A DNA stretch of 28,260 bases from positions 1-28,260 of the forward strand of contig JAJYYD010000137.1 of assembly GCA_021801305.1 (NCBI GenBank). The letters are read 5' to 3'. The notes beneath the pieces were generated by a model. That model had not been told where the DNA came from. It saw nothing but the letters and a program-made list of their open reading frames with translations, and ran no database searches. Below, one piece after another: positions 3,334-27,196 of this stretch; the first letter of the stretch is position 1; each line of letters opens with the position of its first letter. Source of the DNA: Thermoplasmata archaeon (lineage in GTDB: Archaea; Thermoplasmatota; Thermoplasmata; Thermoplasmatales; Thermoplasmataceae). A program made the translations under genes and the position numbers.

Positions 3334-3705
3334 TCATGAAATGAAAACGTCACCATGCTTCGTCCTATTGATTGCCATAGTCATTATAAGATCCATTAAT
3401 TTGTCAGGATCTTTCCATTTAGACGATTTCCTAGAGGGATCTAATCTGTGGATACTTATGATTCCTTTAAGATCTGGAACGCTAAGTTGACTTAATCTGC
3501 TTCGCAGATCGTCAACGCCTGACGTTTCAAGTACTTTGAATATTCCTATTGGATCCTTAGATTCAATCTTTTGTCTTTCATTCTTAACTTGACTTAGTTC
3601 CTCAATAATTTTTTTAGGACTTGCTTTGTCGATTTCAATAAGATCGGCAATCGCTCTAAGCAAATCTGCAATCTGTTTATTCCTAGTTTCTTTTAACTTG
3701 GACAT
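3334..3705 (-). CDS. Small ParA-partner-like protein
   Basis: This is a 123-aa, mostly helical, charged protein whose ATG at 3705 overlaps the 3' end of the parA reading frame by 13 nt. The N-terminal half (LLRAIADLIE, then a Lys/Glu-rich helix) may form a coiled coil. The C-terminal half contains DLKGIISIHRLDPSRKSSKW and then KDPDKLMDLI, which resembles a small SAP/HeH-like helical DNA-binding repeat. Its position directly after parA suggests it is the cargo- or DNA-binding partner (ParB/ParG role) of a plasmid partition pair. It appears intact although parA is broken. The function is inferred from position and general look only. Confidence 0.55.
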   Translation of the reverse strand: MSKLKETRNKQIADLLRAIADLIEIDKASPKKIIEELSQVKNERQKIESKDPIGIFKVLETSGVDDLRSRLSQLSVPDLKGIISIHRLDPSRKSSKWKDPDKLMDLIMTMAINRTKHGDVFIS

Positions 3706-4560
3706 AAGCGCAAAAACTCCTCTTTAACATTTCTGTACTGTTGATAAAGACCACTTGAATTATATTTTGCTTTAAAACTCGATGAAAAGCTCTCAAAATT
3801 GAAAGCCTCCTGTCCTTTTATGGTATCTTTTATTTTTGACTCCCAAACTTTTGGATATTCTGCATTATCTGCCTTTTGTCTTAACAGTTGCTCAGTCGAA
3901 CGGTGCAAGTTTACCGACTTAACCTTGGTTAATATCATACCAAGGCATTCAATAGAAACCCCCAAATTCTCGGAGAATCTGTTAACACTTCCTGATATTT
4001 GAGGTATGCCTAATGTTGAAATAATGTCAGGAACAACAGGGATCAAATAGTGCGTGCTTATCTTTAGAGCATTTTGTGTTATTAAACCTAAGTTAGGTGG
4101 GCAATCGATGAGAATGTAATCAAAAATATTGCCTGATATTATGTTTGACATTGCGAGTTGCAATAATTCAACTGGATTATTTCTGTAATATGTCAAGCTA
4201 GGAATTTAGGAAAGCCTATCTTGCATGTCTATTAATTTCAAACTTGAAGGTAGAAGACTTAGATTTTCTATTCCTCCGTGTACATTTGAAACACTATTTA
4301 TTATGGATTGCCAGATATTAAATGAATATTGCCCGGATAGTTTATCTTGAAATAATTGTGCAATTGTTTTACCCTTTTGATCCAAGGTTTGCCATCTATC
4401 TTGTGCGATCAGAGAGACTGTTGCATTAGTCTAAGGGTCTATATCGATGATTAGAACTTTTTTTCTATTTTTCCTTAGCCAGGAACTCCCCTAACGCTAT
4501 CGTAAGAGAGGTTTTTCCCACCCCTCCCTTTAAATTAATTATGCTGATCAGTTTTGCCAT
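3693..4560 (-). pseudogene. parA: Decayed ParA/Soj-type partition ATPase
   Basis: Reading from the ATG at 4560, the first residues give IINLKGGVGKTSLTIALGEF, an intact deviant Walker A (KGGVGKT). The frame is then lost in an A-rich stretch near 4457-4474. In the shifted frame the protein resumes as KVLIIDIDP, but the next codon is TAG (4431-4433) where ParA proteins have Gln (DxDPQ). A further TAA lies at 4206-4208. Downstream the frame is open to 3693 and includes FDYILIDCPPNLGLIT, the conserved Walker B region (DCPP). One frameshift plus two different stop codons make a pseudogene more likely than recoding. ParA would have segregated the replicon, so its loss suggests integration, or replacement of this function. 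Confidence 0.85.
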
Positions 4561-4619: not shown

Positions 4620-5624
4620 TTAGTTTAACCTATAGAGAATCTCACCAATCAACCATCTTGCATTATTCATCACACGGTCAAGGTTCTCCTTTCCAAGCCC
4701 CTTTCCATTCTTTTTTGCATCATCAAGCCATCCCTTTATATAGGCAGCTGAATCCTCTCTGAAGTTAAACCCGAAATGTGCTCCCACAAGATAAGTGGAA
4801 AGTTCCGCTTCAGATTCAGCAAGGCCTCTGGGAAGCTCCTTCCTGTAGAGGTGCTCAAGCCTTGCATGGGACATCTCATGTATCAGGGTATGAAGTACAT
4901 TCACATCCTCTCCGGGGATCTTCATAACAACAATCTTCTGGCCTTCCCCTGAATGTGCTGTGTATCCTCTTGCCCCATTGTCAATGGTGGATTCCTCAAC
5001 TGTATAATGCTCTCTTGCAATCTTTTTCAGAGTATTATACAGAGACGTGGCCTTAACGGCCTCTTCAACCGGTCTTGCCTTTCCGGGAATTGGTGTTGTC
5101 TGCGATATGTCATAGACTTTGCCAGTACTGAATACCTTCGTGAAACCTCCACCGGCAGTGTTAAACTTATCCCTGACAAGTTCCTCAATGGCCTCATCAC
5201 TCAGTCCTTCTTCCCTCTTCTTCTCAATGAAGTCCTTTACCTTTCCAGGGCCGTCCTTATGTGCAACGCCAACAGGATAGAGAACACTGATTGGTAACGC
5301 ACCATCGTTCACTTCCCTGCCAAAGTATTTCCATTCATTCCGTGACCTGACTATGGTTGCATTAGGATTCTGCATCCCTATGAGCAGTGAATTGAAACCT
5401 GAATAGTCTCCCAGTGTGCCGGAATACTTTCTCATCTGCAGCAGGAGCTGATCCACTGTTGTTATTTTACTGAGATCTCCAAGGAGGTTCCAGGCCTGCT
5501 TCTCGAGCTGTGCCGGAGTAGGCCCAATATCCTGTATCTGAACTTCTCTGGGTTTCCTCTCAGTCTCTATCTTGACATGCTTATTCTCATTTCCGTTCTT
5601 CTTTGTTATCCATTTCTGCACCAT
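4620..5624 (-). CDS. ardC: ArdC-like antirestriction protein (ssDNA-binding domain plus zinc metallopeptidase domain)
   Basis: This 334-aa protein has the two-part layout of ArdC. Residues about 35-180 resemble the N-terminal ssDNA-binding domain: YSGFNSLLIGMQNPNAT is the characteristic 'N.lLi..Q.P.at' motif, followed by RSRNEWKYFGR. Residues 195-300 form a metallopeptidase-like domain with LIHEMSHARLEH (HExxH, His249-Glu250-His253) and a downstream GLAESEAELSTYLVGAHFG, in which Glu274 is the likely third zinc ligand. In plasmid ArdC proteins the N-terminal domain protects incoming single-stranded DNA from restriction. The start has an excellent site (GGAGGAATGAGAA before ATG), and the preceding 47-aa gene ends 3 nt away. 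ArdC points to a replicon that enters cells as, or passes through, ssDNA, and it is close to a broken parA. Confidence 0.8.
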   Translation of the reverse strand: MVQKWITKKNGNENKHVKIETERKPREVQIQDIGPTPAQLEKQAWNLLGDLSKITTVDQLLLQMRKYSGTLGDYSGFNSLLIGMQNPNATIVRSRNEWKYFGREVNDGALPISVLYPVGVAHKDGPGKVKDFIEKKREEGLSDEAIEELVRDKFNTAGGGFTKVFSTGKVYDISQTTPIPGKARPVEEAVKATSLYNTLKKIAREHYTVEESTIDNGARGYTAHSGEGQKIVVMKIPGEDVNVLHTLIHEMSHARLEHLYRKELPRGLAESEAELSTYLVGAHFGFNFREDSAAYIKGWLDDAKKNGKGLGKENLDRVMNNARWLIGEILYRLN

Positions 5625-5949: not shown

Positions 5950-7119
5950 TCACTTTTTTTGATCATCTTTTTCATCTTTGTGTTCATCATCTTCCTTGCC
6001 ATACTTTTTCTTTCCCAACTCTGCAGCCTTTTCAGCAAGCATCTCCATCAGATCCTTCATTTCAGGAGTAATCTTCTCACCATTGCGAATTAGTTTCTCC
6101 GCCATTATATCAAAGATCTCCTCCTTCGTCATTCCTGGTCTGTATGGTGTGTTCATGGGATCGAATGGATCCTCCTTTTCAACTAGTGCATCCTTGGCCA
6201 CATTTACATGCTGCTCACAATTGGGGCAAACTGTCCTGTTTGCACCTCCTGTGTATGTCCAGGCATAGCCGCAATGGTGACATTTGACCTTCTTGCCAGT
6301 CTCTTCCTTCTCCTCCATATCTGCAATGTAGATTCTATGATTGCAGCTGGGGCACTGTGCAACCTTCCTGTAACCAGTGTAATTCCACTCATAACCGCAT
6401 TCATCACACTGGAGCTGAAGAGCAGGTTTTCCATTTTTCAGGGTCAGTTTATTGCCATCCAGGAGTTCAAGCTCCTCCTGGAATTCCTTGAACCTTGATT
6501 CCATGTATTCCTTCTTCTTGGCCTCATACTTCTCTCTCAGGTCATCGGAGGGGAGACGGAACTTCACCAGCTTGACAGTGATCTCTGATATGCCCCTGTG
6601 GATCCTTGGGAACTTCGCCATTGGATGCTCTGGATCGAATGTGTTACGCGAGAGGAGCTTCATCTTCATGAGGCCCTGCACGTCTGTTGCTTCAAACCTG
6701 ATATGGACAAGCTTTCTGGACTGCCTCTCGATGAACGTTTCATCCGGCACTGTTATAAAAGTCAGTATCTGTTTGTACCTGAATCCCTGGGTGAGCATTC
6801 CAAATACCCGGGCACTCATTTCCTGCCACAATCTTGCATTTATACCAAGACCGGCATCATCAAACACAATAACAGATCCAGGCGGAAGGCCTGAGTTCAC
6901 AAGTGCAAGGAAATCCTGGACTGTAAACACAATTCGATCAACATTGAAATTTGGATCCACTCTCTCTGCCAGTCTTATTGATGACAGGGATTTTCCGGAT
7001 CCTGTATCACCGATAAACAGGGCTATGAGATTCCGGTTTTTCTTTATCCTGTTCCTGATCCACTGCAGGAGCCATACACTGTTCTTTGTGGAATCATCCT
7101 TCTCTAAATTCTCGGTCAT
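5950..7119 (-). CDS. P-loop ATPase (Zot/packaging-like) with two zinc ribbons
   Basis: In this 389-aa protein residues 31-44 (LIALFIGDTGSGKS) are the Walker A motif, and VIVFDDAG at 83-90 is Walker B. QGFRYKQILTFITVPD at 111-126 looks like sensor-1. This arrangement resembles the archaeal mobile-element ATPases often labelled Zot-like or FtsK/HerA-like. Two C4 zinc ribbons follow: Cys238-Cys241...Cys256-Cys259 and Cys280-Cys283...Cys298-Cys301. The end is a Lys/Glu/Asp-rich tail. Its ATG overlaps the upstream gene by 4 nt, and GGAGGTG lies before it. As the only large motor-like protein in the structural operon, it is the best candidate for DNA packaging or transfer. It is too short and divergent to be a VirB4 or TraC ATPase. 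The ATPase call is firm; the role is inferred. Confidence 0.75.
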   Translation of the reverse strand: MTENLEKDDSTKNSVWLLQWIRNRIKKNRNLIALFIGDTGSGKSLSSIRLAERVDPNFNVDRIVFTVQDFLALVNSGLPPGSVIVFDDAGLGINARLWQEMSARVFGMLTQGFRYKQILTFITVPDETFIERQSRKLVHIRFEATDVQGLMKMKLLSRNTFDPEHPMAKFPRIHRGISEITVKLVKFRLPSDDLREKYEAKKKEYMESRFKEFQEELELLDGNKLTLKNGKPALQLQCDECGYEWNYTGYRKVAQCPSCNHRIYIADMEEKEETGKKVKCHHCGYAWTYTGGANRTVCPNCEQHVNVAKDALVEKEDPFDPMNTPYRPGMTKEEIFDIMAEKLIRNGEKITPEMKDLMEMLAEKAAELGKKKYGKEDDEHKDEKDDQKK

Positions 7120-9700: not shown

Positions 9701-10873
9701 TCACTCCATCCTAGGTGCAATGATGCCCTTCACTTCTATGTGTTCACCCTTGGGGCCTAGTCGCCTTGTCTCCATTTCGATGGGATATTCCTGCTTAAGA
9801 CGCATTGTCAGAACCGCCATCTTTGGATTCTGGAACTCCTTCCTGCCCAGCATTGTCCTTACTGTCGATCGAAGGTATTCTGTTGCAAAAACCACGCTTT
9901 CAGAATTGTCCCATCCGGTTGGTTTGTTCTCCAGCTTTGGTCTGCTGGATATGGCGTTCACCGATTCGATAGGCACTTCTTTTGGCTTTACTGATTCATT
10001 GTCAGGAATCTGGGTTAATATCTGAACGCTGGCCTTTTGTGAATCCCCATCAAGCCTGAACTTGACAGTGTCTTCTCTGGATTTCTGCAATGCGCTGAGG
10101 AATGTCCTGAGCTGTTCACCTTCAAGCCTGACTGTCCAGGAATCCCTGGAATAGTCAACGGTTGGATATCGGACCCTCTCTGAGTCTGCTGGAGCGGAAT
10201 CGATCCATTGTGTCTTGAAGTCCTTGCCGTATGATACAGGATTTAGATACCCATTGGGAAGGTCCGTTTCCATGGTCTCCTGGAACATTGCTACATGTGC
10301 AGGATCGATGGAAAGGAGGCTGAGCTTCCCGTTTTCTGTAATGATCTTAATGCCACTGCCCTGACCGTAAAACATCTTCAGATCATCACTGTTCAGGTTC
10401 AGCTTTCCCCGGCTGTTGTCTATCCCTAACAGTTCACGGATCTTGACACCATTGTCTGATGATACCTTCCCTGACCCTGCTTTGCTGTTTTCTGTGGATA
10501 TGCCATTGAACATCTCTACCTCTTCCCTGAGCTTTCCTTTAAGCCGGTCAGGATGTACATCTGCCCATGCCTGGGCATCGCTTGTGGTCATTCCCAGAAC
10601 CCTCTCTATCTCCTCGTAGGAGCTGAATTTTCTATTCTCCGGAATCGTTCCAGGAGACAAGGTTGCATCGGTTCCGTCAGGCAGTATTCCCTCATAGGGT
10701 GCATACAGGTCCAGCCTCTGGTTTGTCTTTATGAGCCTGGCCTTCTTCCCCTCTTTCCTGAGTGCCATGACCTCCTCATAGGCAAGCTTCCTTGGAATTC
10801 CGAATGGCTTTTTCTTCTGTATCGGGTATACCTTCCGATCCTTCCCTTTCCCCTTCGACCTGAATTCAGTCAT
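9701..10873 (-). CDS. Divergent PCNA-like sliding-clamp protein with N-terminal extension
   Basis: This 390-aa protein starts at ATG 10873, with GGAGGAAAGAGAA upstream. Residues 1-150 form a basic, linker-like region. From about 155 the order of motifs follows archaeal PCNA. RGKLNLNSDDLKMFY matches the first helix, and GKLSLLSIDPAHVAMFQETM (about 183-202) matches the clamp motif '..MDPSHVALVDL'. TWTVRLEGEQL-type text follows (here SWTVRLEGEQLRTFLSALQ), matching the start of the second PCNA domain. FATEYLRSTVRTMLG matches 'Y L.dmvk', and YPIEMETRR...VKGIIAPRME matches the C-terminal 'MPMKMEF...FLLAPRVE'. PCNA is normally about 245 aa; the C-terminal 235 residues fit that. It is unusual to find it between surface-protein genes. 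The assignment rests on motif order and needs a profile or structure comparison. Confidence 0.6.
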   Translation of the reverse strand: MTEFRSKGKGKDRKVYPIQKKKPFGIPRKLAYEEVMALRKEGKKARLIKTNQRLDLYAPYEGILPDGTDATLSPGTIPENRKFSSYEEIERVLGMTTSDAQAWADVHPDRLKGKLREEVEMFNGISTENSKAGSGKVSSDNGVKIRELLGIDNSRGKLNLNSDDLKMFYGQGSGIKIITENGKLSLLSIDPAHVAMFQETMETDLPNGYLNPVSYGKDFKTQWIDSAPADSERVRYPTVDYSRDSWTVRLEGEQLRTFLSALQKSREDTVKFRLDGDSQKASVQILTQIPDNESVKPKEVPIESVNAISSRPKLENKPTGWDNSESVVFATEYLRSTVRTMLGRKEFQNPKMAVLTMRLKQEYPIEMETRRLGPKGEHIEVKGIIAPRME

Positions 10874-11207
10874 TTCTCTTTCCTCCTGATACAAACCTGA
10901 TGTCCTCCACTATCCTTGATCTAAGAGCAGGCCTGTTGTAATCAAGCCTGTACAGTTCTCCTAGTTTCCTCAGGGTCTCCTTGTGGCCGTATTTCTGTTC
11001 TGCCCTGGTAAGAGCTACCCTTCTCTGACCTACTGGAAGATTGATGTGATACCCAAGACCGGTCAGGGAGCCGGGATTTCTTATTCCTACACCGGTGAGA
11101 TCTTCAACCTCCCTTGGGGTCAGAGCCCTTGTTATTGCAGACTTTCCATTGCGGATCGGTATGACCCGCTTCTTTCCGTTCTTCTTTACTGTTCTAAACT
11201 GTGTCAT
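10866..11207 (-). CDS. 113-aa basic protein sharing its N-terminus with the PCNA-like protein
   Basis: This small, very basic protein overlaps the PCNA-like gene by 8 nt and carries that gene's ribosome site at its 3' end. Its first 37 residues (MTQFRTVKKNGKKRVIPI..., then TRALTPREVEDL) align with those of the downstream protein (MTEFRSKGKGKDRKVYPI..., then PRKLAYEEVMAL). A common N-terminal module is therefore used twice. The rest (VALTRAEQKYGHKETLRKLG) is helical. It has GAGGTAAG before the ATG. Such basic 'FRTVKKNGK..IPI' starts occur in archaeal mobile-element proteins. DNA or protein targeting is only a guess. Confidence 0.55.
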   Translation of the reverse strand: MTQFRTVKKNGKKRVIPIRNGKSAITRALTPREVEDLTGVGIRNPGSLTGLGYHINLPVGQRRVALTRAEQKYGHKETLRKLGELYRLDYNRPALRSRIVEDIRFVSGGKRND

Positions 11208-11217
11208 TTTTCTTACC

Positions 11218-14200
11218 TCATTTCTTGCCCTTCAGCACTATCCTTTCATTTTTTCCCCTCGGGCTCAGACCCTGAACAATCAGATCAGGATTGTCCTGCC
11301 TTCTCAGTGACGCATATGCGATAACAAGGCCTCCAACAGTCAGTATGGTGATCAGGAAGTTGCTAAACCCTCCGAAAAATGATATCACATCCGCCAGGGA
11401 AAAACTCGATGAGGAGTACTGGGATGTGACCTGGAAGTCCGCATTGATATGATTGGACTGTGAATTGTTGTTGAATGCTACAATAGAGATTCCGTATGAC
11501 CCTGCGGAATAATCCCTCTGGTCCATTGTTAGATTGAAGTAGGCCAGCTCTCCTGAGGCTGTGTAGGTGGAATTGACCTCAGAAATGTTCAGGGGAGTTG
11601 TGCCAAGGAAAGCCTCAACGGCGATTATTCCATTGGAGGACAGAACCTTGACAGTGTAATAGTCCATTGGCCCCTTGACGTTTCGGGTGTAGGATATGGC
11701 AATGCTGCTGTTTGTCCCCTGAGGAAGCACCACAATGGTCCTGTGCACTGTTGATGATGCCCCAAGCCCATCCGTTACAGTGACTGATACGGAATAATTG
11801 CCGGGATTCTGGAAGTAATACAGTACGGACTGCCCCGATTCCGATGTGCCATTGATGTCCCAGGAATATGTGAATGTTGAAGAATCAGGGGATGTCGCAG
11901 TGGCATTCAGAGAAAGCATTGTGTCGACCGGTATTATCGATGGAGGGCTGAATGCCAGCACCGGAACTGCAGGTATCATTCTGACTGTAAGATATTGCGT
12001 CCAAGTTTTCCCATCACCGTATGAAAATGTTGCAATAACGGTGTTCAGTTCGTTATAGACAGGGAATTTGTATGATATGTTCATTCCTGTTAATGTCTGC
12101 CCATTGGGGAATGACCATGACATGTTGTAAGGACCTTTGGCATCCCAGTTTGGAATTGCCCTGAAATGGAATGCCCGGGAGATGTTAAGGTCAGTGGAAT
12201 AGAAGAAGGTGACTGGCGGAGGAAGGCTCTGAACTGATATATTAGCTGAACCGGTGGCACCATTGGAACTCGTAACAGTGAAACGGACGGTGTAATTTCC
12301 TACAGGGAATGTGTGGGTTGGATTCTGCTGGAGAGAATAGTGCCCTGGAGAGAAAGTCCAGTTGTACGAGTAACCAGAACCTCCCAGGACAGATGAAGAG
12401 AACTGAACAGCAAGAGGCCCAAGCCCTGAAGTCTGGTTTGCAGCAACGGCAACATAAAGGCCAACGTCAATTGTGAAATTCCTTGTCTCGGTGTATCCTC
12501 CCTGATCGGTTACCTGAACTTCAAATGTGTCAGGGCCTGATGAAGAGAACACATGGGTTATTACCGCTCCGGTCTCATGCTGCCCTGACGGGAATATCCA
12601 TGAAATCTGGTAAGGCTGGATTCCCCCTGAAATGTTTGATTTCAATGGGAATGGCACGGAAACCAGGGGCTTTCCTGACCATGATACCGATACAGCGGGA
12701 TCAGGATGCACCTGCACCGTTATGGATGATGAAGCATCCTTGCCGAATGAATCTGAGAGGATGAGCTGCACCGAGTAGTTTCCGGGTGATTTGAATGCAT
12801 AGGAGACCGTGTTGTTGTTGAACTCATGCCCGGCTATGATCCACTCATACCCGTACGGGCCAATGCCGCCAAAACCAGATGCACGGAACTGATCGCTCAC
12901 GTTAGCATCCAGGTTCGTTGCGGAAGCTATGATCGAAGCATTGGGATATGTTCCAACAGTGATATCGGTTGAATAGGAGTCGAAAATTCCCTGAGAGTCA
13001 GTTATAACAAGCCTTACGGGATAAATTCCGGCCTTACTGAATTCCCATGAAAGGGATGTACCGTTTCCCTCGAAAGTTCCATTGACATACCATTTGTATG
13101 TAAAACCTGGAGTCCCGCCGATTATATTGGAATTGAAATTGTCAGTGACATTTGGGTCGATGTTGCTATACTCAGCATCTATCTTTACCTGAGGTAGTGG
13201 GTTGATGGTGATGCTTACTGATGAGGAAGCCCCATTTCCCGAGCCGTCTATGACCGATACAGTTACATTGTACACGCCTGGCTTGGAAAAAATGTATGTT
13301 AGACTCCTCTGGAATCCAACATATCCATATCCTGAAACAGACCAGGAGTAGTTGAAGAATGGAGAACCTCCTGCGATGGAAGACCTGAACTCCACTGGAA
13401 CCCCCACATCGGTTGAGTTCATGGATTCAGAGACCTCAATCTTTGGAAGAGGTTCCACTGTGATATTCAGGTATGCGTAGGCCTTGGACCCCTGACTGTC
13501 ATCTATGAGAAGGGATATGTTGTATTTACCTGAGGAGGGGAAGGAATATTTGAGGTAAAGCCCTGCGGAGGTGTTTACACCATTCACAAACCAGTAGTAG
13601 TTGTATGGGGCAGTCCCATATGATCCGTAGCCTTCCCAGTATGTTGTTGTGGATTCATCAGTCTTATTGGGGCCTTCAATCAAGGCTGAGGGCTTCGTTA
13701 TGACTTCAATGGTAATTGATGAGGAGGCTTGTTCTCCCAGAGAGTCTACAACGGTAAGATTCAAGGTATATGTGCCGGTGGAAGAGAAATTCATATGGAA
13801 TTCTGCTGAATAGTTGACAATCTTCCCACCCAAGCTCCAGGTATAGTTGAAAGGAGATGTCCCACCTGTAATTGATGCTGCAAATGTGTCGTTTATCCCC
13901 TGATCCACCTTAGTATAGGAGGCCTGGATCACCACTGATGGATCTGCATTTACAACCTCATTGACCGATGCTGATGCTGTGTTTCCATTGGCATCGGTAA
14001 CTGTCAGGGATACGGGGAAGGTGCCGGATGAGGTGAAAGTATAGTTAACGAATGAAGATGAAAATGACTGCCCATTGATGGTCCAGGAGTAATTGAATGG
14101 ACCGGTGCCTCCTGATATGGACCCTGAGAAGTTCGCCCATATTCCAGTGTCAGTGGGGTTGTGCAGCACATGAATGACAACCGAAGGATCAGGATTGACA

Positions 14201-16053
14201 ACTTCCTTCAGAGAGTAAGATGATGAATGGCCATCTGAATCGGTGACGGTGACATTGACATAATGGATGCCCTCTGATGAGAATGAATAGGAGAATGACG
14301 ATGCAGTGGATTCCTGAACTCCATTGATGTACCATACATATGTGTCTGTGCCAGTACCTCCTGATTCTGAAGATGAAAATGTCACAGAGTTTCCCACATC
14401 GGTTGGATTCTGCGATGATGATACCGTTACAGATGGATTCGGATTGATATCCACAGTGACAGAGGCAGTGCTCTGCACCCCGACTGAATCGGTTATTGTC
14501 ACTGTCATGGTGTAGGACCCGGAGGACGAGAAGGAATGGGAGAAGTCCTGGGAAGTGGATATCTGCTTCCCGTTCAAGGTCCAGGAATATGAATAGCTGC
14601 CAGTACCGCCGCTTGGAGTGGAGGAGAATTCTACGGGGTAGCCAACATCAGCACTGCTGACATTGGATGATGCTGATACCGTTGGGTTAGAGTTTACGGT
14701 TTCAGCTATTGTCTTGGAAACCGAATAACCGGCCGCATCTGTTACCGTAAGCTGTACAGAGTATGAACCGGATGAGCTGAATGACACATTGATATCCCGG
14801 GTTGAGAATGTGTTCCCATTCACTGACCAGGAATAGCTATATCCAGGAGTTCCGCCTGAAACAGATGATGTAAATTCAACAGTTATTCCGGAATCCGTGG
14901 GATTCTGGCTGGAAGATATGGAGACAGATGGATCGGAATTTACAGTCTGGGAGAGTGTTGAACTCTGGCCGGAACCCCCATTGCTATCTGTAACTGCAAC
15001 ATATACTGAATTTGAACCGGAGGAAGTGAAGTCCTCTGTCCACTGGTTGCTTGAACCTGATTGGACAGAGTTTCCATTCAGGTAGAAATTGTAGTTTGTA
15101 TATGATCCGGACCCTCCGGAAGCAGAAGCTGTGAAGGTAACACTCTGGCCGGCATCTGATGGGTTTTTTGAACTTGATAAGGACACAGATGGATCAGAAT
15201 CAACGGTGATTGTGATCGTATTACTGCCCTGGGTGTAGCCTGCGCCGTCAGTGACCTTTAGAGATATGGTATAAGAACCGGCTGAAGAGGCTGACCATGA
15301 TGGGCTGGATGCAGTTGTGGAGGAGAATGAACCACCGGATGATGACCATGAGTAGGAGAGAGAACCTGTCGTGCCTGAAACCGATGATGAGAGGGAGATC
15401 GAGACGCCGGCATCTGTGGTGCTTGCGCTTGATGATATGGATACAGATGGCGCGTATATGTCAAGAGACCCGGATTCAGAACCTGAACCCATGGATATTT
15501 CCCATGTCTGCGTGGAACCTCCCGATGACCCATAGGATGTGACCTCATAGGAGGTACCTGACATACTGTATCCTGTCCATGAAGTGGTGGAGTACGCAGT
15601 GGTGAAGTAGTCAGTGTATTCTGTATTGCCCACCCTTCTTGTTGATTGTGAATTCGTGTAATGCTGGGAATAGGACAATCCGCTCCCGGATGATCCACCG
15701 CTTGAAACACTATTTCCAGCAATACTCAATGTCCATCCCGGAGTTCCGGGGTAAGATGGGTAACTGGGGGCCGGATAACCACTGGTACTCTCTGAAGTAT
15801 GTTCGTTGCTAGCGGAACCTGATGACGATACAGAAAACCCCGGAAATGATACAGTTTGACCGTAGTAAACTGTTGTCGTTGACCCTGCTGGTGCGGAGAC
15901 ATCATAGGCCTTTGGTTCTGGGATGCCCGCATGATTCTGATGTGGTTGGGCCGGGTCCCAGTGGCTCAGGGCTTGAAAACCTGCAATACCAATGCCGGAA
16001 AGAACTATCACTAAAACAAGAATTGTTATTCCAGCTTTCCTGGGTATATTCAA
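11218..16053 (-). CDS. 1611-aa PKD-repeat surface protein with C-terminal anchor
   Basis: A signal peptide (ITILVLVIVLSGIGIAGF) opens the protein, followed by a Ser/Gly/Tyr-rich head of about 170 residues. About fifteen PKD-like repeats of roughly 80-88 residues come next. Typical repeat features recur: 'DPSVSISSSQNPTD', 'SGGTGSYSYSW', 'FSSSGSYSV..TVTDA.G'. Repeats 1-6 are close in sequence and later ones diverge. The C-terminus has one transmembrane helix (FLITILTVGGLVIAYA) and a 30-residue basic tail. The start is a TTG at 16053, with AGGTGGTG upstream and a stop codon immediately before it in frame. PKD domains are rigid beta-sandwich rods in archaeal surface layers and adhesins. The protein would be a stalk over 40 nm long, suited to host or partner attachment. 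It lies between the small membrane proteins and the PCNA-like module. Confidence 0.8.
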   Translation of the reverse strand: MNIPRKAGITILVLVIVLSGIGIAGFQALSHWDPAQPHQNHAGIPEPKAYDVSAPAGSTTTVYYGQTVSFPGFSVSSSGSASNEHTSESTSGYPAPSYPSYPGTPGWTLSIAGNSVSSGGSSGSGLSYSQHYTNSQSTRRVGNTEYTDYFTTAYSTTSWTGYSMSGTSYEVTSYGSSGGSTQTWEISMGSGSESGSLDIYAPSVSISSSASTTDAGVSISLSSSVSGTTGSLSYSWSSSGGSFSSTTASSPSWSASSAGSYTISLKVTDGAGYTQGSNTITITVDSDPSVSLSSSKNPSDAGQSVTFTASASGGSGSYTNYNFYLNGNSVQSGSSNQWTEDFTSSGSNSVYVAVTDSNGGSGQSSTLSQTVNSDPSVSISSSQNPTDSGITVEFTSSVSGGTPGYSYSWSVNGNTFSTRDINVSFSSSGSYSVQLTVTDAAGYSVSKTIAETVNSNPTVSASSNVSSADVGYPVEFSSTPSGGTGSYSYSWTLNGKQISTSQDFSHSFSSSGSYTMTVTITDSVGVQSTASVTVDINPNPSVTVSSSQNPTDVGNSVTFSSSESGGTGTDTYVWYINGVQESTASSFSYSFSSEGIHYVNVTVTDSDGHSSSYSLKEVVNPDPSVVIHVLHNPTDTGIWANFSGSISGGTGPFNYSWTINGQSFSSSFVNYTFTSSGTFPVSLTVTDANGNTASASVNEVVNADPSVVIQASYTKVDQGINDTFAASITGGTSPFNYTWSLGGKIVNYSAEFHMNFSSTGTYTLNLTVVDSLGEQASSSITIEVITKPSALIEGPNKTDESTTTYWEGYGSYGTAPYNYYWFVNGVNTSAGLYLKYSFPSSGKYNISLLIDDSQGSKAYAYLNITVEPLPKIEVSESMNSTDVGVPVEFRSSIAGGSPFFNYSWSVSGYGYVGFQRSLTYIFSKPGVYNVTVSVIDGSGNGASSSVSITINPLPQVKIDAEYSNIDPNVTDNFNSNIIGGTPGFTYKWYVNGTFEGNGTSLSWEFSKAGIYPVRLVITDSQGIFDSYSTDITVGTYPNASIIASATNLDANVSDQFRASGFGGIGPYGYEWIIAGHEFNNNTVSYAFKSPGNYSVQLILSDSFGKDASSSITVQVHPDPAVSVSWSGKPLVSVPFPLKSNISGGIQPYQISWIFPSGQHETGAVITHVFSSSGPDTFEVQVTDQGGYTETRNFTIDVGLYVAVAANQTSGLGPLAVQFSSSVLGGSGYSYNWTFSPGHYSLQQNPTHTFPVGNYTVRFTVTSSNGATGSANISVQSLPPPVTFFYSTDLNISRAFHFRAIPNWDAKGPYNMSWSFPNGQTLTGMNISYKFPVYNELNTVIATFSYGDGKTWTQYLTVRMIPAVPVLAFSPPSIIPVDTMLSLNATATSPDSSTFTYSWDINGTSESGQSVLYYFQNPGNYSVSVTVTDGLGASSTVHRTIVVLPQGTNSSIAISYTRNVKGPMDYYTVKVLSSNGIIAVEAFLGTTPLNISEVNSTYTASGELAYFNLTMDQRDYSAGSYGISIVAFNNNSQSNHINADFQVTSQYSSSSFSLADVISFFGGFSNFLITILTVGGLVIAYASLRRQDNPDLIVQGLSPRGKNERIVLKGKK

Positions 16054-16063
16054 TTAGCACCAC

Positions 16064-16381
16064 CTAAACGAATGCGCCAACCACCGGGGTATCCTTCACC
16101 AGCTGGAAAGCCAGAAATCCGATCCCGATCATAACGGCAGTACCAATCACAGATACCGGAAGAGCCAGGGGACCCATTGCAATAGCAATGTCCACAAGCA
16201 ATCCAATGAAGCCCTGAAATATTGACATTATCAGGCCGAAGATCGAAGAAATGACCGTCAACAGCCCATTGAGAATGTCTGCAAACAGATATAGGAGGCC
16301 ATTCTCCAGCTGATGGATGAAGGAATTGGATAGATCCTTGGGATAGTTCCAGGGAAGCCATGGATTCTGCCACCATGCCAT
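16064..16381 (-). CDS. Small membrane protein, third member of a tandem triplet
   Basis: This 105-aa protein has a Trp/Pro-rich N-terminus (MAWWQNPWLPWNYP). Two hydrophobic helices lie at about 35-65, and a third at about 72-95 ends in FQLVKDTPVVG. The last segment (IAMGPLALPVSVIGTAVMIGIGFLAF) follows the same plan as the C-terminal helices of the next two genes: a GxxxxP turn, one long helix and a 'KD..VG' end. The ATG abuts the TGA of the preceding gene, so it is coupled. The arrangement suggests an envelope or pore subunit. Confidence 0.6.
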   Translation of the reverse strand: MAWWQNPWLPWNYPKDLSNSFIHQLENGLLYLFADILNGLLTVISSIFGLIMSIFQGFIGLLVDIAIAMGPLALPVSVIGTAVMIGIGFLAFQLVKDTPVVGAFV

Positions 16382-16639
16382 TCAGCCCACCACATCCTTT
16401 GCTGCATCGAATACCACAAATACCACATAAAGACCGGCCACTGTCACGCCCACTATCCCGACCAGGACGGATGGAATCCATATCCCGAAACCGGAGATTG
16501 ATGCCGCCCAGCTGTAGAACAGAATTGAGATCTTCCCTCCTATCCATCCCATCTCGTACTGGAGATCCACTGCAAAGGCGGAGACTACGGAATGGAAGAA
16601 ATCCAGCAGGATATTCAGAAGGGAGGATGTGAAGGACAT
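16382..16639 (-). CDS. Small membrane protein, second member of a tandem triplet
   Basis: The 85-aa protein has an amphipathic N-terminal helix and a C-terminal transmembrane helix preceded by SISGFGIWIPSVLVGIVGV and ended by DAAKDVVG. It matches the preceding 111-aa protein (SMSGYGVWAPVMFVIGLGL... DAEKDVTG) closely enough to be a paralogue. GGGGAG lies upstream of the ATG at 16639, 13 nt after the preceding gene. A longer overlapping frame (16050-16643) is not favoured because its translation is Cys/Gly-rich and non-membrane. Confidence 0.6.
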   Translation of the reverse strand: MSFTSSLLNILLDFFHSVVSAFAVDLQYEMGWIGGKISILFYSWAASISGFGIWIPSVLVGIVGVTVAGLYVVFVVFDAAKDVVG

Positions 16640-16652
16640 TCAAGGGCTCCCC

Positions 16653-16988
16653 TCACAAGGCAGTTTCAAACCCGGTCACGTCCTTCTCAGCGTCTATGAA
16701 GGTGAAGAACAGGTATCCAACGAGAATGGCCAGTCCAAGGCCTATCACAAACATCACCGGTGCCCATACCCCGTACCCTGACATGGAGAAGCCGAATGAC
16801 TGGAACATGAGGACAACAGACTGGCCGAACCCTGACATCATCTCATTGAAGAGATTGCCAAGACCAGATGCTATTGACTTGAATAGGGACAGTATGACAC
16901 TCCATAGCCCGGAAAATATGGTGCTTCCAATGGATGAAGAGGAGGACGCCGCTACCACCCTGGCAGCGATGAGATGAATGAATGTCAT
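16653..16988 (-). CDS. Small membrane protein, first member of a tandem triplet
   Basis: The 111-aa protein has a Ser/Ala-rich N-terminus and a long amphipathic region with periodic Phe/Gly (LWSVILSLFKSIASGLGNLF). It ends in a transmembrane helix entered by GFSMSGYGVWAP and left by FIDAEKDVTGFE. A strong GGGAGGGAG site precedes the ATG, which overlaps the upstream six-TM gene by 4 nt. No family recognised. It is similar to its two downstream neighbours. Confidence 0.6.
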   Translation of the reverse strand: MTFIHLIAARVVAASSSSSIGSTIFSGLWSVILSLFKSIASGLGNLFNEMMSGFGQSVVLMFQSFGFSMSGYGVWAPVMFVIGLGLAILVGYLFFTFIDAEKDVTGFETAL

Positions 16989-18190
16989 GCCTTTCTCCCT
17001 CCCTTCTTTGCAACGGGGTTGTTGTTCAATGAAATGTCATACACTGAAATCTCAAGGAACGAGCTCGCGAAAAGAATCACTGCCCCTATGATGTAAGAGA
17101 TCTGCATCACAGGGTAAGGTCCGAATACAGTGACAAGCCCGTTATCCCCATACACTGACAGGGAGATGCTCATCGAGGTCAGATTTGCTGAAATCTCGAA
17201 GGTCACCGGAGTGGACTGATTTCCAGACAGGAGATCAGGCGAAATGGCAAATGCCAGTGAAGTTAAGTTTCCGGCTGATCCAGTCTCTATGGGCGTGAAG
17301 GTAGATTTGTTTGTTCCAGTGCCCATGGTGACATTGAAATCCTTGACATTTGCGGCCAGAATTATCTTTGATACAGCGAAATTGTTGAGCTCCGCAAGAG
17401 TAAGGTTGCTCTCCACATATACGGTGTGCGAATAGGTAGTGGTGTTATTCACTGTGCTTGATGGAAAATCAAAGGTTGCCGTGCCATTGGCCTGACCGAA
17501 TGGAACTGGTCCTGATGGACCGGAAACATACTCAACAACACTCTGATCCTGTAGAACATGAGAATTGTCATGCCCGGATACGAAAAGGCCGCCTAGGCCC
17601 GCTCCCACTGGAATTATCAGTATTGCCACAATGAAAATGATCAGGAGGGCAAGCATACCCCTTGCACCCTTGGATGTTCCTGATTCTGCCTTTGTTAGAA
17701 CCGTATTACCTTTGCCCTTCTGTCCCCTGAACCCATGCTTGTGAGACCATGCTGCGTTCCACGTAACTGCGAGGCCTGCCACAAGGACAGATACCAGGAA
17801 GAGGAGGGCATCAGCGTTTCCATTGAAAGCCGGCTCAATTACGTACTTTCCGAAATTGAACAGGTACCCAAGGAGGCCACCAAGGAATGCCCCGACAATG
17901 AATGCAGGTATGATGCGGACCAGGAGATCTGAAATGGACCTTCCTGGTGGGGTGAAGAACTCAACTATCGCCCATATTATTGCACCCATAAGGACTGCAG
18001 GAGCCACTATGCCTTGAGTCAGAATTACTGTGTGGCCTGATATTACGAACTGAGGCCTTGACAGCAATGACACGAGCAGGAGAAACGTACCAAGAAGGGC
18101 CACTATAACTGCACCAAGGGACCAGTTAGGGTTACTCCATCTCTTTCCATCAGAACTATTCTTAACCTTATTTGCGGAATTCTTTTTCAT
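16985..18190 (-). CDS. 401-aa six-TM membrane protein, first gene of the structural operon
   Basis: A basic N-terminus precedes transmembrane segments at about 25-44, 58-79, 90-111, 127-146 and 178-204. An extracellular loop of about 155 residues, rich in Ser, Thr, Asn and Val with several N-glycosylation sequons, comes before a last helix at about 362-385 and a Lys-rich end. The layout (five helices, outer beta-domain, sixth helix) suits a membrane channel or envelope scaffold. The ATG at 18190 has GCGGAGG upstream, but that site is partly inside a predicted hairpin. The gene heads the operon that includes the triplet, the PKD protein and the ATPase. No family recognised. Confidence 0.65.
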   Translation of the reverse strand: MKKNSANKVKNSSDGKRWSNPNWSLGAVIVALLGTFLLLVSLLSRPQFVISGHTVILTQGIVAPAVLMGAIIWAIVEFFTPPGRSISDLLVRIIPAFIVGAFLGGLLGYLFNFGKYVIEPAFNGNADALLFLVSVLVAGLAVTWNAAWSHKHGFRGQKGKGNTVLTKAESGTSKGARGMLALLIIFIVAILIIPVGAGLGGLFVSGHDNSHVLQDQSVVEYVSGPSGPVPFGQANGTATFDFPSSTVNNTTTYSHTVYVESNLTLAELNNFAVSKIILAANVKDFNVTMGTGTNKSTFTPIETGSAGNLTSLAFAISPDLLSGNQSTPVTFEISANLTSMSISLSVYGDNGLVTVFGPYPVMQISYIIGAVILFASSFLEISVYDISLNNNPVAKKGGRKA

Positions 18191-20647: not shown

Positions 20648-21237
20648 CTCTCAGTTGCCTCCTGCAAGTCTTTGACAGCTTCAGAATCAGGTCTCCATGT
20701 CAACTCAATCTGAACATTTCCGAGGATAACCTTTTCTCCTTTTGCATAACTCCTGATCAGACTTTTACGGCCTTCGGTATCTACTGAGTAAAGAACAAAC
20801 TGATATTTGTTCCGGCTGTATGACAGAATGTATGATCTCTCAACAGGGTTAACTCCTTGGGTTAACGGATTAACGTTAATCCTGTTAATCCTGACACGAA
20901 CCTTTTTGAATAAAAGGGGAGATGCAGTTCCCGGTGTTTCAAGCTGCTGAAAGTGCTCACACACACTCTCAGGCCTGAATGACCTCTTAGGGTTTAATCT
21001 GTTATGGTGATTGCATCTGGGGCATATTCCTACCCAGAATCCATCCTCATAGGCACCGGATACCATTGAGAACCGAGGGTTAACGGGTTTACGGTTAACA
21101 GTTGGGTTAATAGGATTAACGCTTTGGATTAACGGATTAACGGATTTATTGTTGATCTCATTCCTCTTCTGTCTGCGGTACTCCCGCATCTTCTCTCTCA
21201 TATATTGGTTGTACTCATTCTGGTCCTTTCGTGGCAT
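20644..21237 (-). CDS. 197-aa zinc-binding-like protein with repeated VNP segments
   Basis: A basic N-terminal helix (MPRKDQNEYNQYMREKMREY) resembles that of the upstream HNH protein. Next comes a low-complexity stretch rich in Val-Asn-Pro, then a Cys/His group (ICPRCNHHNRLNP...VCEHF) that may bind zinc. A second VNP stretch and a beta-rich C-terminal part follow. The VNP segments correspond in DNA to clusters of GTTAAC-like words. The ATG shares its A with the TGA of the HNH gene and has GGAGGTAAGCTG upstream. No family recognised. Confidence 0.6.
   Translation of the reverse strand: MPRKDQNEYNQYMREKMREYRRQKRNEINNKSVNPLIQSVNPINPTVNRKPVNPRFSMVSGAYEDGFWVGICPRCNHHNRLNPKRSFRPESVCEHFQQLETPGTASPLLFKKVRVRINRINVNPLTQGVNPVERSYILSYSRNKYQFVLYSVDTEGRKSLIRSYAKGEKVILGNVQIELTWRPDSEAVKDLQEATER
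20846..20891. repeat. GTTAAC-type repeat cluster 1 (inside the 197-aa gene)
   Basis: Five copies of RTTAAY-like words in 46 bp on the forward strand: GTTAAC at 20848 and 20861, ATTAAC at 20869, GTTAAT at 20875 and 20884. They encode Asn-containing triplets in the 197-aa protein. The density is far above that of the neighbouring genes. Confidence 0.5.
21076..21144. repeat. GTTAAC-type repeat cluster 2 (inside the 197-aa gene)
   Basis: Six copies in 69 bp: GTTAAC at 21079 and 21094, GTTAAT at 21106, ATTAAC at 21115, 21128 and 21136, plus a near-copy GTTTAC at 21087. Several share a longer GGATTAACG unit. It lies about 190 bp from cluster 1 in the same gene. Confidence 0.5.
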
Positions 21238-24524: not shown

Positions 24525-25304
24525 TTATTTTTCAATATATTCCACATTTAACCTCTCGTGTTGAATACTTTTCTGTGGCGGATTCAATCTTTTTTGGATT
24601 ATGCTAAGATAATCCTTATTCTTCTCTATGCCAATTGAGTTTCTCCCAAAGTATTCAGCAACTGCTGAAGTGGTGCCTGAACCTAGGAAAGGATCCAGAA
24701 TTGTATCGCCTTCATTCGTAGATGATAAAATGACCCTTTTCAATAATTCAAAGGGCTTTTGTGTCGGATGTTCACCAGCCCATTTTTCACTCTTGGGTGT
24801 TAATGGAATCGACCACATATTCCTCATTTGTTTACCATCGTTTAACCCTTTCATGACTTCATAATTAAATGTCCATTTTTCCTTGGAATGATTTTTCACT
24901 GCCCATATAAGGTGTTCAGTGCTTTCTGTAAACATCCTTGTAGTAATGTTAGGTTGAGCATTCGGTTTGAACCAAACTATGCTGTTGTTTATTTTCATGT
25001 CGAGGTGTTGCAGGATAAAACCCAATTGATATATGTTGTGAAATGAACCACTCACCCAGAAGCTCCCTCCTGGCCTTACTGCACGTAGAGCCTCACTAAT
25101 CCAATTTAAGTTGAATTCGAAGAGGGAATCCTTTGTGAATATGTCCCATGCCTCTTGCATTGTGATGTGCTTACTGTATGCCCAACTGAGGCCCTTAGAT
25201 TTGGACATCCCATACGGAGGGTCAGCAAACACCATATCTATTGAGTCGTCTTCCAGTTCCTTCAGTATATCTAGACAGTCCCCAAAGTAGATTTTATGGT
25301 TCAT
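24525..25304 (-). CDS. Beta-class N6-adenine DNA methyltransferase
   Basis: The 259-aa protein has motif IV first (VFADPPYGMS, Asp28-Pro-Pro-Tyr31) and the SAM-binding motif late (DPFLGSGTTSAVAE, about 204-217). It also has HPTQKP at 179-184, the hallmark of beta-class amino-methyltransferases. DPPY favours adenine N6 methylation over SPPY-type N4 cytosine. The C-terminus has the usual SIGIEKNKDYL. The ATG at 25304 overlaps the small RHH gene by 11 nt. With the decayed HNH gene downstream it makes a restriction-modification-type pair; the methyltransferase itself looks complete. Confidence 0.85.
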   Translation of the reverse strand: MNHKIYFGDCLDILKELEDDSIDMVFADPPYGMSKSKGLSWAYSKHITMQEAWDIFTKDSLFEFNLNWISEALRAVRPGGSFWVSGSFHNIYQLGFILQHLDMKINNSIVWFKPNAQPNITTRMFTESTEHLIWAVKNHSKEKWTFNYEVMKGLNDGKQMRNMWSIPLTPKSEKWAGEHPTQKPFELLKRVILSSTNEGDTILDPFLGSGTTSAVAEYFGRNSIGIEKNKDYLSIIQKRLNPPQKSIQHERLNVEYIEK

Positions 25305-25449
25305 TAGTTCGGTCTCCGTTTTCTTCTACCCAATGCCTCATTAGTGAATTTATCTTGGTTGAAACCTTTATGTCTTTATCGATGCAAAGTCTCTTAAAAT
25401 CTGACAAAACGTCCTCATCTACAGTGATATTCAGTGCTACTTTACTCAA
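25294..25449 (-). CDS. 51-aa ribbon-helix-helix protein
   Basis: A short gene from TTG 25449. The product reads VALNITVDEDVLSDFKRLCI, then a second helix starting STKINSLMRHW. This fits the ribbon-helix-helix DNA-binding motif: a strand with alternating residues, helix A, and helix B with a Ser cap. A TAG lies four codons upstream, so TTG is the only sensible start. It is about 25 bp after a TATA box, which suggests a leaderless mRNA. It overlaps the methyltransferase by 11 nt and probably controls it, as the C proteins of restriction-modification systems do. Confidence 0.65.
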   Translation of the reverse strand: MSKVALNITVDEDVLSDFKRLCIDKDIKVSTKINSLMRHWVEENGDRTNEP

Positions 25450-25472
25450 CCCACAACACTATCCTTATTGGT

Positions 25473-25505
25473 GTATATTTATAACTATTAATAAACATAA
25501 CTATT
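25473..25505 (-). promoter_or_regulatory. Promoter and direct-repeat operator of the RHH/methyltransferase operon
   Basis: AAATATA on the reverse strand (about 25473-25480) is a TATA box placed for a leaderless start at TTG 25449. Immediately behind it are two direct copies of ATAACTATT (25481-25489 and 25497-25505), 16 bp apart. Tandem direct repeats at helical spacing are typical RHH operators. Confidence 0.5.
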
Positions 25506-25569
25506 GAGTATAGTCTTGATATGGAGATATTTTCTTATATTATTCGAAGAAAGGCCCCAGAGATGATGA

Positions 25570-26181
25570 TTATCTATCCATATACCACATAGGTTTCAGA
25601 TTGCCCGCGTACTTTTTGCTCTTTTTGTTTTCCAAATCTACGTATCTTGAACTTGGAGGTTGTCGATTTGCGACACTCATAGCAAGGTTGTCAATTTCTT
25701 TTGGGCTGTCGATGAACTGCCTTACCCAACCTTGTAAGAATAATGAAGGAGGGTTGTAATTACTTTCTTTATTGTAGCCATACTCTTGTTCTACGATGAA
25801 AGCTTGAGCTAGATATCCAATTAAGAGAATTGGGTTCAAGAAGTGTTTGAAATTCTCTTTCTCAAGCGAGTTTAAAGCGTCTTTTGGGTCTTCGCCATAG
25901 AATATTTTGTCAAAGCCAATCAAAAGATTATTTTTGAGTTCAGGTCTGCTCCTAATCCTAAGATTAAGGTCAAGCAATAACCTTAAATGATTAGGTCTGA
26001 AAGTCCTTTGGCCTTCACTCATCCAAATCTGGAAATTCTTCTTCAAGTCATAACTTCGAAATCTTGGAGGGACCTTAGAAGGTCTGTTAATGTATAATCT
26101 TACACCGTCTTTCTCCAATAATACAAACTCTGTGTCAAATTCCAATCCCTTTACTATGTCTAACAATTCTGATTTATCCAT
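25570..26181 (-). CDS. Unrecognised 203-aa protein next to the methyltransferase
   Basis: The ATG at 26181 lies about 28 bp after ATTTAAATC on the same strand, a leaderless arrangement. The protein is soluble and helical, with FRPNHLRLLLDLNLRIRSRP, IGFDKIFYGEDPKDAL, FLQGWVRQFID and SVANRQPPSSRYV as the most distinctive stretches. It ends in Lys-rich and Trp-containing text. No metal or nuclease motif is obvious to me. It is transcribed in the same direction as the methyltransferase, with its own promoter, and could be a specificity or restriction component of the same island. This is inferred from position only. Confidence 0.6.
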   Translation of the reverse strand: MDKSELLDIVKGLEFDTEFVLLEKDGVRLYINRPSKVPPRFRSYDLKKNFQIWMSEGQRTFRPNHLRLLLDLNLRIRSRPELKNNLLIGFDKIFYGEDPKDALNSLEKENFKHFLNPILLIGYLAQAFIVEQEYGYNKESNYNPPSLFLQGWVRQFIDSPKEIDNLAMSVANRQPPSSRYVDLENKKSKKYAGNLKPMWYMDR

Positions 26182-26350
26182 GCAAGTTCCAACACAGGTT
26201 TTGATTTAAATTAATGTCCCTTGAATATGAGTCTAACCAATATAAATTTCAACGAGGCTTATTAAGACTTTAAAATTAATAGGAATTACTCATAGGAGAG
26301 CAAAGGAATTATAAAATAAATTAATATACAAAAGTCTCTCATTTTTACCA

Positions 26351-26623
26351 ATGCCTAACCACATAATACTACTCTCTGGTCAGATTTCTTCTGAAAAATC
26401 TACATTATCAAAAGGGTTGGCTGAAAAGTACAACATAAATGTATTCAAAACTAGGGACGTACTTAAAGAGAAACTAAGCGGGAACATGAATATCAATAGG
26501 ACAACTCTACAAGAAGGAGGAGAAGTGCTCGACCGCAAGACAAATGGAAAATGGGTTCTTGATGAAATGAATATTTGGGGGACGAACAACAAAATTCAGA
26601 AAGGTGCGATTGTAGATTCATAG
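26351..26623 (+). pseudogene. Fragment of a P-loop kinase-like protein
   Basis: MPNHIILLSGQISSEKSTLS starts like a nucleotide kinase, but the P-loop reads GQISSEKST instead of GxxxxGKST, so the key Gly has become Glu. It continues with a NVFKTRDVLKEKL stretch and WVLDEMNIWG, then stops after 90 residues. The usual kinase length is at least 180. A further frame after a -1/+1 shift is readable for about 30 codons. Archaeal TATA-like text (TTATAAAATA) lies about 40 bp upstream. Most likely a decaying gene. A short functional protein cannot be excluded. Confidence 0.5.
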
Positions 26624-26920
26624 AAGGCAAAAAAACAATAAAAGGGCTGGTAACCAAGGTGAGAGTACTACGGCAGACATTAGCAGGAGAGTATATCCCG
26701 AATTGTTTGGAAACAGGTTAAAATAAGACAAAGACTGCATGACCGCCCCAAATGACAATAAAATGGATGCAGCATAAAAGAACCATTTGCCCATTGGAAA
26801 ACAATATATTTATTTATAGTAATATTAGCAATAACCTCTCCAATCGGCAAAATAACGGTTTGAATATCGACTGAAGCCACACTACTGATTTATTGCAGTC
26901 ACTTATTCTATCGGCTTAGG
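26624..26920. other. Stretch without a convincing gene
   Basis: About 300 bp of AT-rich DNA between the kinase fragment and vapB. A reverse-strand frame (26680-26880) has a Cys-rich, unstructured translation and no ribosome site. Part may be the decayed rest of the kinase gene. Confidence 0.5.
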
Positions 26921-26954
26921 AAAGCTTAATAGTGCATACACATATATATGTGTA
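26921..26954 (+). promoter_or_regulatory. vapBC promoter and 18-bp palindromic operator
   Basis: AAAGCTTAAT is a TATA/BRE-like element about 25-30 bp upstream of the probable transcription start. It is followed by TACACATATATATGTGTA (26937-26954), a perfect 18-bp palindrome. VapB antitoxins bind such palindromes with VapC to repress their own operon. The palindrome covers an upstream ATG (26948), which is one reason to prefer the ATG at 26960 as the vapB start. Confidence 0.6.
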
Positions 26955-26959
26955 ACATC

Positions 26960-27196
26960 ATGGGAAGCAAGAACATTTCAATCTCAGACGAAGCCTATTC
27001 CAGGCTGAAGAAGTTCAAGGGAAAGAATGAAAGTTTCACGGACGTGATAAACAGGTTAACAAACAAAGCGACCATTCTAGACCTCAGTGGAACACTTACA
27101 CAAGATGAGGCAGAATCGATTCTGAAAAATATAAATGATGCGAGGAAGTTGAGCAGAATAAGATACCAAGACTTTAGTGAGAGGTCACATCATTAA
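26960..27196 (+). CDS. vapB: VapB-type antitoxin
   Basis: The 78-aa protein has SKNISISDEAYSRLKKFKGK followed by NESFTDVINRL, the usual start of DUF217-type VapB antitoxins: a strand, a basic helix and the ESF/ESFSDVI motif. The C-terminal half (LSGTLTQDEAESILKNINDA) is an acidic helix that would occupy the VapC groove. The TAA shares its last A with the vapC ATG, a typical toxin-antitoxin overlap. An ATG at 26948 would add four residues. Confidence 0.8.
   Translation: MGSKNISISDEAYSRLKKFKGKNESFTDVINRLTNKATILDLSGTLTQDEAESILKNINDARKLSRIRYQDFSERSHH

Follow-up and report, generated by a model that had tools for sequence, protein, structure and literature searches.

What is a gene for a relative of the sliding clamp PCNA doing among genes for surface and membrane proteins? 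The question is raised by a 28,260-nucleotide stretch of DNA from a Thermoplasmata archaeon (GenBank assembly GCA_021801305.1, contig JAJYYD010000137.1, positions 1 to 28,260; hereafter, the window), whose minus strand encodes a clamp-like protein of 390 amino acids (ATG at 10873, stop at 9701), while the host genome carries its own PCNA elsewhere (contig C158, E 7e-15). Our answer, put forward tentatively, is that the gene belongs to a virus-like element of acid-loving Thermoplasmata and that its product, a reduced protein with the PCNA fold, may recruit host replication enzymes to element DNA. The computed support consists of a C-terminal half homologous to PCNA, a complete domain II, a domain I with a single unit left in the models, conservation centred on the pocket for PIP (PCNA-interacting protein) boxes, and a separate basic N-terminal module.

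A search for the clamp family collected 105 proteins from the database at E values up to 1. Eighty of these were aligned (alignment A1), with near-duplicates, short proteins and P0105 left out; the alignment retains P0067 and P0100, whose C-terminal ends do not resemble clamps, and P0067 was excluded only from the conservation counts. The host comparison set comprised 25 of 30 Thermoplasmata PCNA loci, kept by an end-motif filter. Compared profile against profile, the family C-terminal halves matched the 25 host PCNAs with a probability of 98.7% (E 4e-16) and a score of 109; the best of 100 column-shuffled host alignments scored 20 and the reversed alignment 11.7. Four subgroups, covering 77 of the 80 rows (P0066, P0067 and P0087 omitted; the fourth including P0100), were compared with host PCNA separately and gave 98.0, 94.6, 95.4 and 86.0% across 186, 169, 57 and 36 columns, with the best of 30 shuffles below 22 in each. 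The first-pass annotation, made from the sequence alone, had proposed PCNA-like motifs in the right order; they are present in the frame (DPAHVAM at residues 190–196, YPIEME at 363–368, APRME at 386–390), the PCNA similarity lies far above shuffled noise (109 vs 20), and the motifs sit on equivalent PCNA segments, domain to matching domain. The match of domain I to PCNA domain I covers 34 columns at 89%, and that of domain II to PCNA domain II covers 116 columns at 98%; the cross-comparisons reach 0.3% and 2.7%.

Could the motifs have matched by chance on another fold? The window protein alone matched no Pfam family, so that neither PCNA_N nor PCNA_C rose above its gathering score, and its comparison with PHROGs and PDB sequences did not find PCNA. 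PCNA was absent among the Pfam matches listed for the 80 family members (25 of 34 families), and the family profile returned from PDB sequences three rows that look like noise (best E 0.0073) and no PCNA. These blanks favour chance; against it stand the profile-profile comparisons, the shuffles, the fold comparisons and a match of residues 357–397 only to the NCBIfam archaeal sliding clamp NF002222 (23 bits, E 4.7e-5), which falls below the curated cut-off of 207 bits. We consider chance refuted by the profile and fold comparisons and give it next to no weight. That the clamp-family protein is homologous to PCNA and shares its fold is close to certain, being borne out by the profile-profile comparison, the sub-threshold NCBIfam match and the predicted structure.

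Predicted monomer models have the PCNA fold with two similar domains, domain II complete and domain I partial. The window protein is modelled with three complete beta-alpha-beta units, versus four per canonical PCNA chain (12 inner helices per trimer): most of the second unit of domain I is missing, and the second inner helix is absent there. The model of a divergent family member likewise has three complete units, with a predicted local distance difference test score of 65–75 in the linking stretch. Between domain I anchors, found by pattern in 55 of the 80 family members and 21 of the 25 hosts, the spacing is 40 residues in the family vs 71 in host PCNA (about 31 fewer), although a family range of 18–102 indicates that some anchors are mis-set. 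It is highly probable that domain I is reduced, and about a quarter of the sliding clamp seems to have been lost. The earlier expectation of two clamp domains in a head-to-tail ring holds only in part: the models show an intact domain II but, in line with the anchor spacing, little of the second unit of domain I, which makes a canonical trimer doubtful. Nor is the label of an ordinary PCNA justified, because the four-unit feature, looked for in the models, was not found.

Conservation, ranked over 254 clamp-half positions, is highest at P364, A386, P387 and P237 (ranks 1–4; human equivalents P234, A252, P253 and P129). Among fifteen positions that we take to be equivalents of the PIP pocket, assigned from human PCNA numbering, ten rank within the top 25 and thirteen within the top 37, with a mean rank of 29.5 vs 127.5 for random picks. 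Conservation is poor in the strand that we assigned to the domain II ring contact (residues 298–309; mean rank 154), and the mean rank of the reduced domain I unit is 170. Since the pocket ranks high and both the ring-contact strand and the reduced unit rank low, selection appears to hold the partner pocket and not the ring. On this sequence evidence the protein probably binds PIP boxes, and partner binding is where it likely acts as a clamp does; the suggestion in the first-pass annotation that it could recruit the host polymerase fits the conserved pocket. Scanned with a PIP-box pattern, the window's open reading frames (ORFs) contained one PIP-like motif, near the shuffled mean of 0.66, and thus gave no sign of an element-encoded partner.

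The protein was also said to carry a basic N-terminal extension of 150 residues. An extension exists, at about 136 residues, and its basic part is confined to residues 1–62 (net charge +11); the predicted linker helices that follow (between 86 and 123) are absent in some family members, for example P0006 and P0021. The N-terminal module is separate from the clamp half. Searching with residues 1–80 found 92 proteins of 116 candidates, and at least 11 of 123 collected proteins carry the module on C-terminal halves with non-clamp ends (judged by eye); these halves are of two or perhaps three kinds, and two of the proteins are DUF3560. A short tag in the module recurs on neighbouring proteins. It is found on the small basic protein encoded just upstream (seven such proteins, 88.7% by hhalign, E 2.6e-6) and, as a W-type tag, on an ArdC-like protein, itself identified from sub-threshold matches to Pfam ArdcN and MPTase-PolyVal and from a PHROG anti-restriction protein. 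The ArdC tag has a profile score of 19.6 vs a best of 12.1 among 16 internal slices. W-type tags also occur on the clamp members P0077 and P0079 and on a paralogue of the 113-residue protein in locus L084. Across 153 pairs of window gene-start regions, the top scores went to ArdC with the 113-residue protein (31) and ArdC with the clamp (29), the pairing of the 113-residue protein with the clamp (24) being tied third with an unrelated pair; an independent repeat search singled out the ArdC and 113-residue start regions (53 nucleotides at 72%). The link to ArdC is suggestive, not proven. Elsewhere, at L053 8880–11354, four consecutive genes begin with an FR...VYPI-type tag or variant on different proteins; the 84-residue one scores only weakly for the tag, and a relative of one of the four is encoded in L047, a two-clamp locus described below.

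The coordinates of the gene, its parts and its neighbours are collected in Table 1. An alternative frame of 397 residues, with a TTG start, begins just ahead of the AGGAGG, which we read at 10887–10882. The clamp gene overlaps the upstream gene by 8 bases and the next ATG lies a few bases past its stop, which points to a tight operon.

Table 1. Features of the clamp gene and of its surroundings in the window.
Feature	Position	Strand	Source
PCNA-fold protein gene, 390 aa, ATG start	9701..10873	-	ORF list, database search
AGGAGG, likely ribosome-binding site	10882..10887	-	Read directly
N-terminal module, residues 1–62: tag FRSKGKGKDRKVYPI (about residues 4–18) and helix-strand-strand part	10688..10873	-	
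Variable linker, residues 63–136; helices predicted between 86 and 123	10466..10687	-	
Domain I, first beta-alpha-beta3 unit, residues 142–202, includes IDPAHVAM	10268..10450	-	
Site of domain I second unit, reduced, residues 203–233; inner helix not predicted	10175..10267	-	
Segment assigned as equivalent of the interdomain connecting loop, residues 234–244, with P237 and Y241	10142..10174	-	Authors' assignment
Domain II, both units complete, residues 245–390, with YPIEME and IIAPRME	9704..10141	-	
Small basic protein, 113 aa, same N-terminal tag MTQFRTVKKNGKKRVIPI	10866..11207	-	
Repeat-rich surface protein, 1611 aa, N- and C-terminal hydrophobic segments	11218..16053	-	
Upstream of the surface-protein gene, proteins of 105, 85, 111 and 401 aa in which membrane segments are predicted	16064..18190	-	
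Conserved module genes downstream of the clamp: 119, 83, 282, 304 and about 100 aa	7116..9720	-	
Protein with P-loop motif (by eye) and zinc ribbons	5950..7119	-	
ArdC-like protein, W-type tag MVQKWITKKNGNENKHVKI (weaker evidence)	4620..5624	-	

The flanking genes are as first described: the surface protein, which has polycystin/PKD-type repeat matches (the best one below the NCBIfam cut-off), lies upstream, and predicted membrane segments occur in the 282- and 304-residue proteins downstream. All seven related loci, from five other genomes, place the clamp between a surface-protein gene and membrane-protein genes, with small genes sometimes intervening between the surface-protein gene and the clamp; the P-loop protein and ArdC come next wherever the contig extends that far. 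A search of 50,697 phage records for relatives of the P-loop protein found a single one, in LSV-48N (E 7e-19, with 31.6% identity across 43% of the query), which is described as a lemon-shaped Haloferax virus. The conserved module and this haloarchaeal relative bear out the proposed mobile, virus-like origin of an element that is known here from its genes alone.

Both loci of genome G021 have a tyrosine-recombinase gene near the module. End overlap, as expected of a circular molecule, was absent in the window, in the whole contigs of L049, L052 and L055, and in G119:C24; there were no tRNA genes in the window or six loci; no relatives of the clamp or P-loop protein were found in viral_contigs; and tblastn at E 1 found no clamp relatives in INPHARED. 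Seven plasmid matches at E 0.4 were dismissed as noise. Herpesvirus processivity factors UL44 and UL42 partner a viral polymerase; no such polymerase was found among the window ORFs scanned. Elsewhere in the window are a short ParA-like protein without its N-terminal part and a small neighbour (3334–4196), perhaps a plasmid partition remnant; a 49-nucleotide direct repeat (20842–20890 and 21109–21157, 76%) inside a 197-residue gene, giving a repeated NP-rich peptide; and a type II-like DNA methyltransferase with a 203-residue neighbour and a small gene pair (24525–27588), the pair resembling VapBC toxin-antitoxin genes by eye only, with no PADLOC match.

The A1 profile matched in 96 of 400 genomes in the class, with full-length members in six (eight loci). 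The remaining matches are mostly weak, over the C-terminal half and in PCNA-length frames, and the three checked (G000:C158, G026:C84 and G006:C48) are cellular PCNA. All five named records in which relatives occur are metagenome assemblies from Thermoplasmata. Genome G119, from another family of the class, has two module copies (L083 on C24, L084 on C26) whose clamps differ, sharing 54% and 32% identity with the window protein, and L085 1–3703 holds a diverged module version with a short clamp remnant (a 97-residue ORF). The literature, surveyed at title and abstract level with subscription papers mostly outside its scope, did not describe this clamp family.

How does the protein compare with known clamps? 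Archaeal PCNA (host copy L001) is homologous, with the same domain order, the same fold, and the IDPAHVAM and DYP...LAPRME segments; unlike it, the family is about 31 residues shorter between domain I anchors, lacks the second inner helix there in the model, carries an N-terminal module, falls below Pfam and NCBIfam cut-offs and is encoded among surface and membrane genes. PCNA domains also occur in VP1 of HCIV-1, an alphasphaerolipovirus: VP1 is described as a confirmed component of the virion in which two PCNA domains are predicted, the virus having no recognised polymerase (PMC4958249). VP1 differs in having 1608 residues and two PCNA-like regions, which match host PCNA by hhalign at 74.6 and 98.6% and our family at 2.7 and 12.5%; because it hardly aligns to the family, it is probably a separate capture. 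Published accounts of replication proteins in Methanococcales pT26-2 plasmids and in archaeal viruses also mention PCNA, and another Thermoplasmata locus type shares with these a PCNA outside the host's own PCNA locus. It has two clamp genes each in L046 (5307–6371 and 10101–10952) and L047 (4849–5808 and 8137–8985): an N-extended PCNA and, a few kb off, a second, diverged PCNA-like gene (95.7% to host PCNA by hhalign, no Pfam match). Pfam recognises the extended proteins, unlike ours, and their extension is of another kind; that these loci are mobile elements is a guess.

Polyvalent proteins may offer a parallel for the tag. ArdC-N is described as heading proteins that are transferred together with DNA (Iyer et al., 2017; PMC5512222), in a text that contains neither PCNA nor sliding clamp as a term; the likeness lies in the ArdC-like neighbour and in the idea of an N-terminal header on DNA-travelling proteins, the difference in that the tag here sits on separate, smaller proteins. 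The gene order also resembles the pleolipovirus core, in which a small membrane protein is grouped with a spike and an ATPase; a relative was detected for the P-loop protein only, in LSV-48N.

On the reading that we tentatively prefer, host proteins with PIP boxes (replicative polymerase, clamp loader, FEN1 and ligase) would sit in the pocket while the basic module would grip either element DNA or the machine by which the element is transferred or packaged, and in this way host replication enzymes would be brought to element DNA. Instead of closing into a PCNA trimer, the protein may act as a monomer or as an oligomer, open or non-canonical. Less certainly, the clamp protein may accompany the DNA into a new cell, as may ArdC and the 113-residue protein, which bear related tags, and such delivery we hold to be possible, if on the unlikely side; coupling to packaging, also raised in the first-pass annotation, is speculative, with some indirect support from the shared tag. 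A fuller version, in which a ring-less three-unit clamp is delivered with DNA under an ArdC-shared tag and gathers host PIP-box enzymes without a clamp loader (or, as a variant, forms a four-subunit ring with 12 inner helices), strikes us as rather improbable.

Several results weigh against this recruitment reading. Measured between the D of DPAH and APR, in 74 of 80 family members and 24 of 25 hosts, the clamp is only a little shorter than host PCNA (median 191.5 vs 201), so the domain I loss is mostly offset by longer stretches elsewhere. Inner-helix charge is near neutral in family and host alike, neither favouring nor excluding DNA threading. Two of the fifteen pocket equivalents (human L126 and I128) are not conserved, at ranks 106 and 144, and the pocket test is not fully independent because its columns overlap the motifs by which homology was recognised. 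The P-loop protein may be something other than an ATPase for transfer or packaging, since the LSV-48N record and PHROGs name its relatives DnaA-like replication initiation proteins. The ArdC tag reaches only 36% by profile, and the best of 500 ArdC/113 shuffles also scored 31 (mean 17).

The protein might instead serve the element as an ordinary sliding clamp. It would form a ring, perhaps one with another number of subunits, be loaded by host RFC and keep the host polymerase on element DNA, and its N-terminal part would be incidental. Its PCNA fold, its pocket, its near-host total length and the PCNAs mentioned for pT26-2 plasmids and archaeal viruses all suit that view; the reduced or missing second unit of domain I in models, the poorly conserved ring-contact strand and the position among surface and membrane genes in seven of seven loci do not, and we think it somewhat unlikely. 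A retained pocket without a retained ring contact, beside a reduced domain I, would suit a decoy, which would compete for the host's PIP-box proteins or, by joining host PCNA, block ring closure, slowing host replication or repair to the element's benefit; the basic tagged module and the ArdC association point rather to element DNA, and we judge a decoy unlikely. The same placement between surface and membrane genes, with HCIV-1 VP1 as a precedent, could mean that the particle has taken over a clamp fold for its structure or assembly, with no partner binding, but conservation concentrated on the partner pocket makes this more improbable still.

Should the recruitment reading be true, the partner-binding half of a clamp can persist while the ring is abandoned, and archaeal elements may carry such a recruiter within their surface and membrane gene block. 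The family would then allow a direct check on whether a clamp that does not encircle DNA can still be of use. In Thermoplasmata elements, the N-terminal tag may mark proteins carried with DNA, and a relative of the clamp may let an element borrow the DNA-copying machinery of its host.
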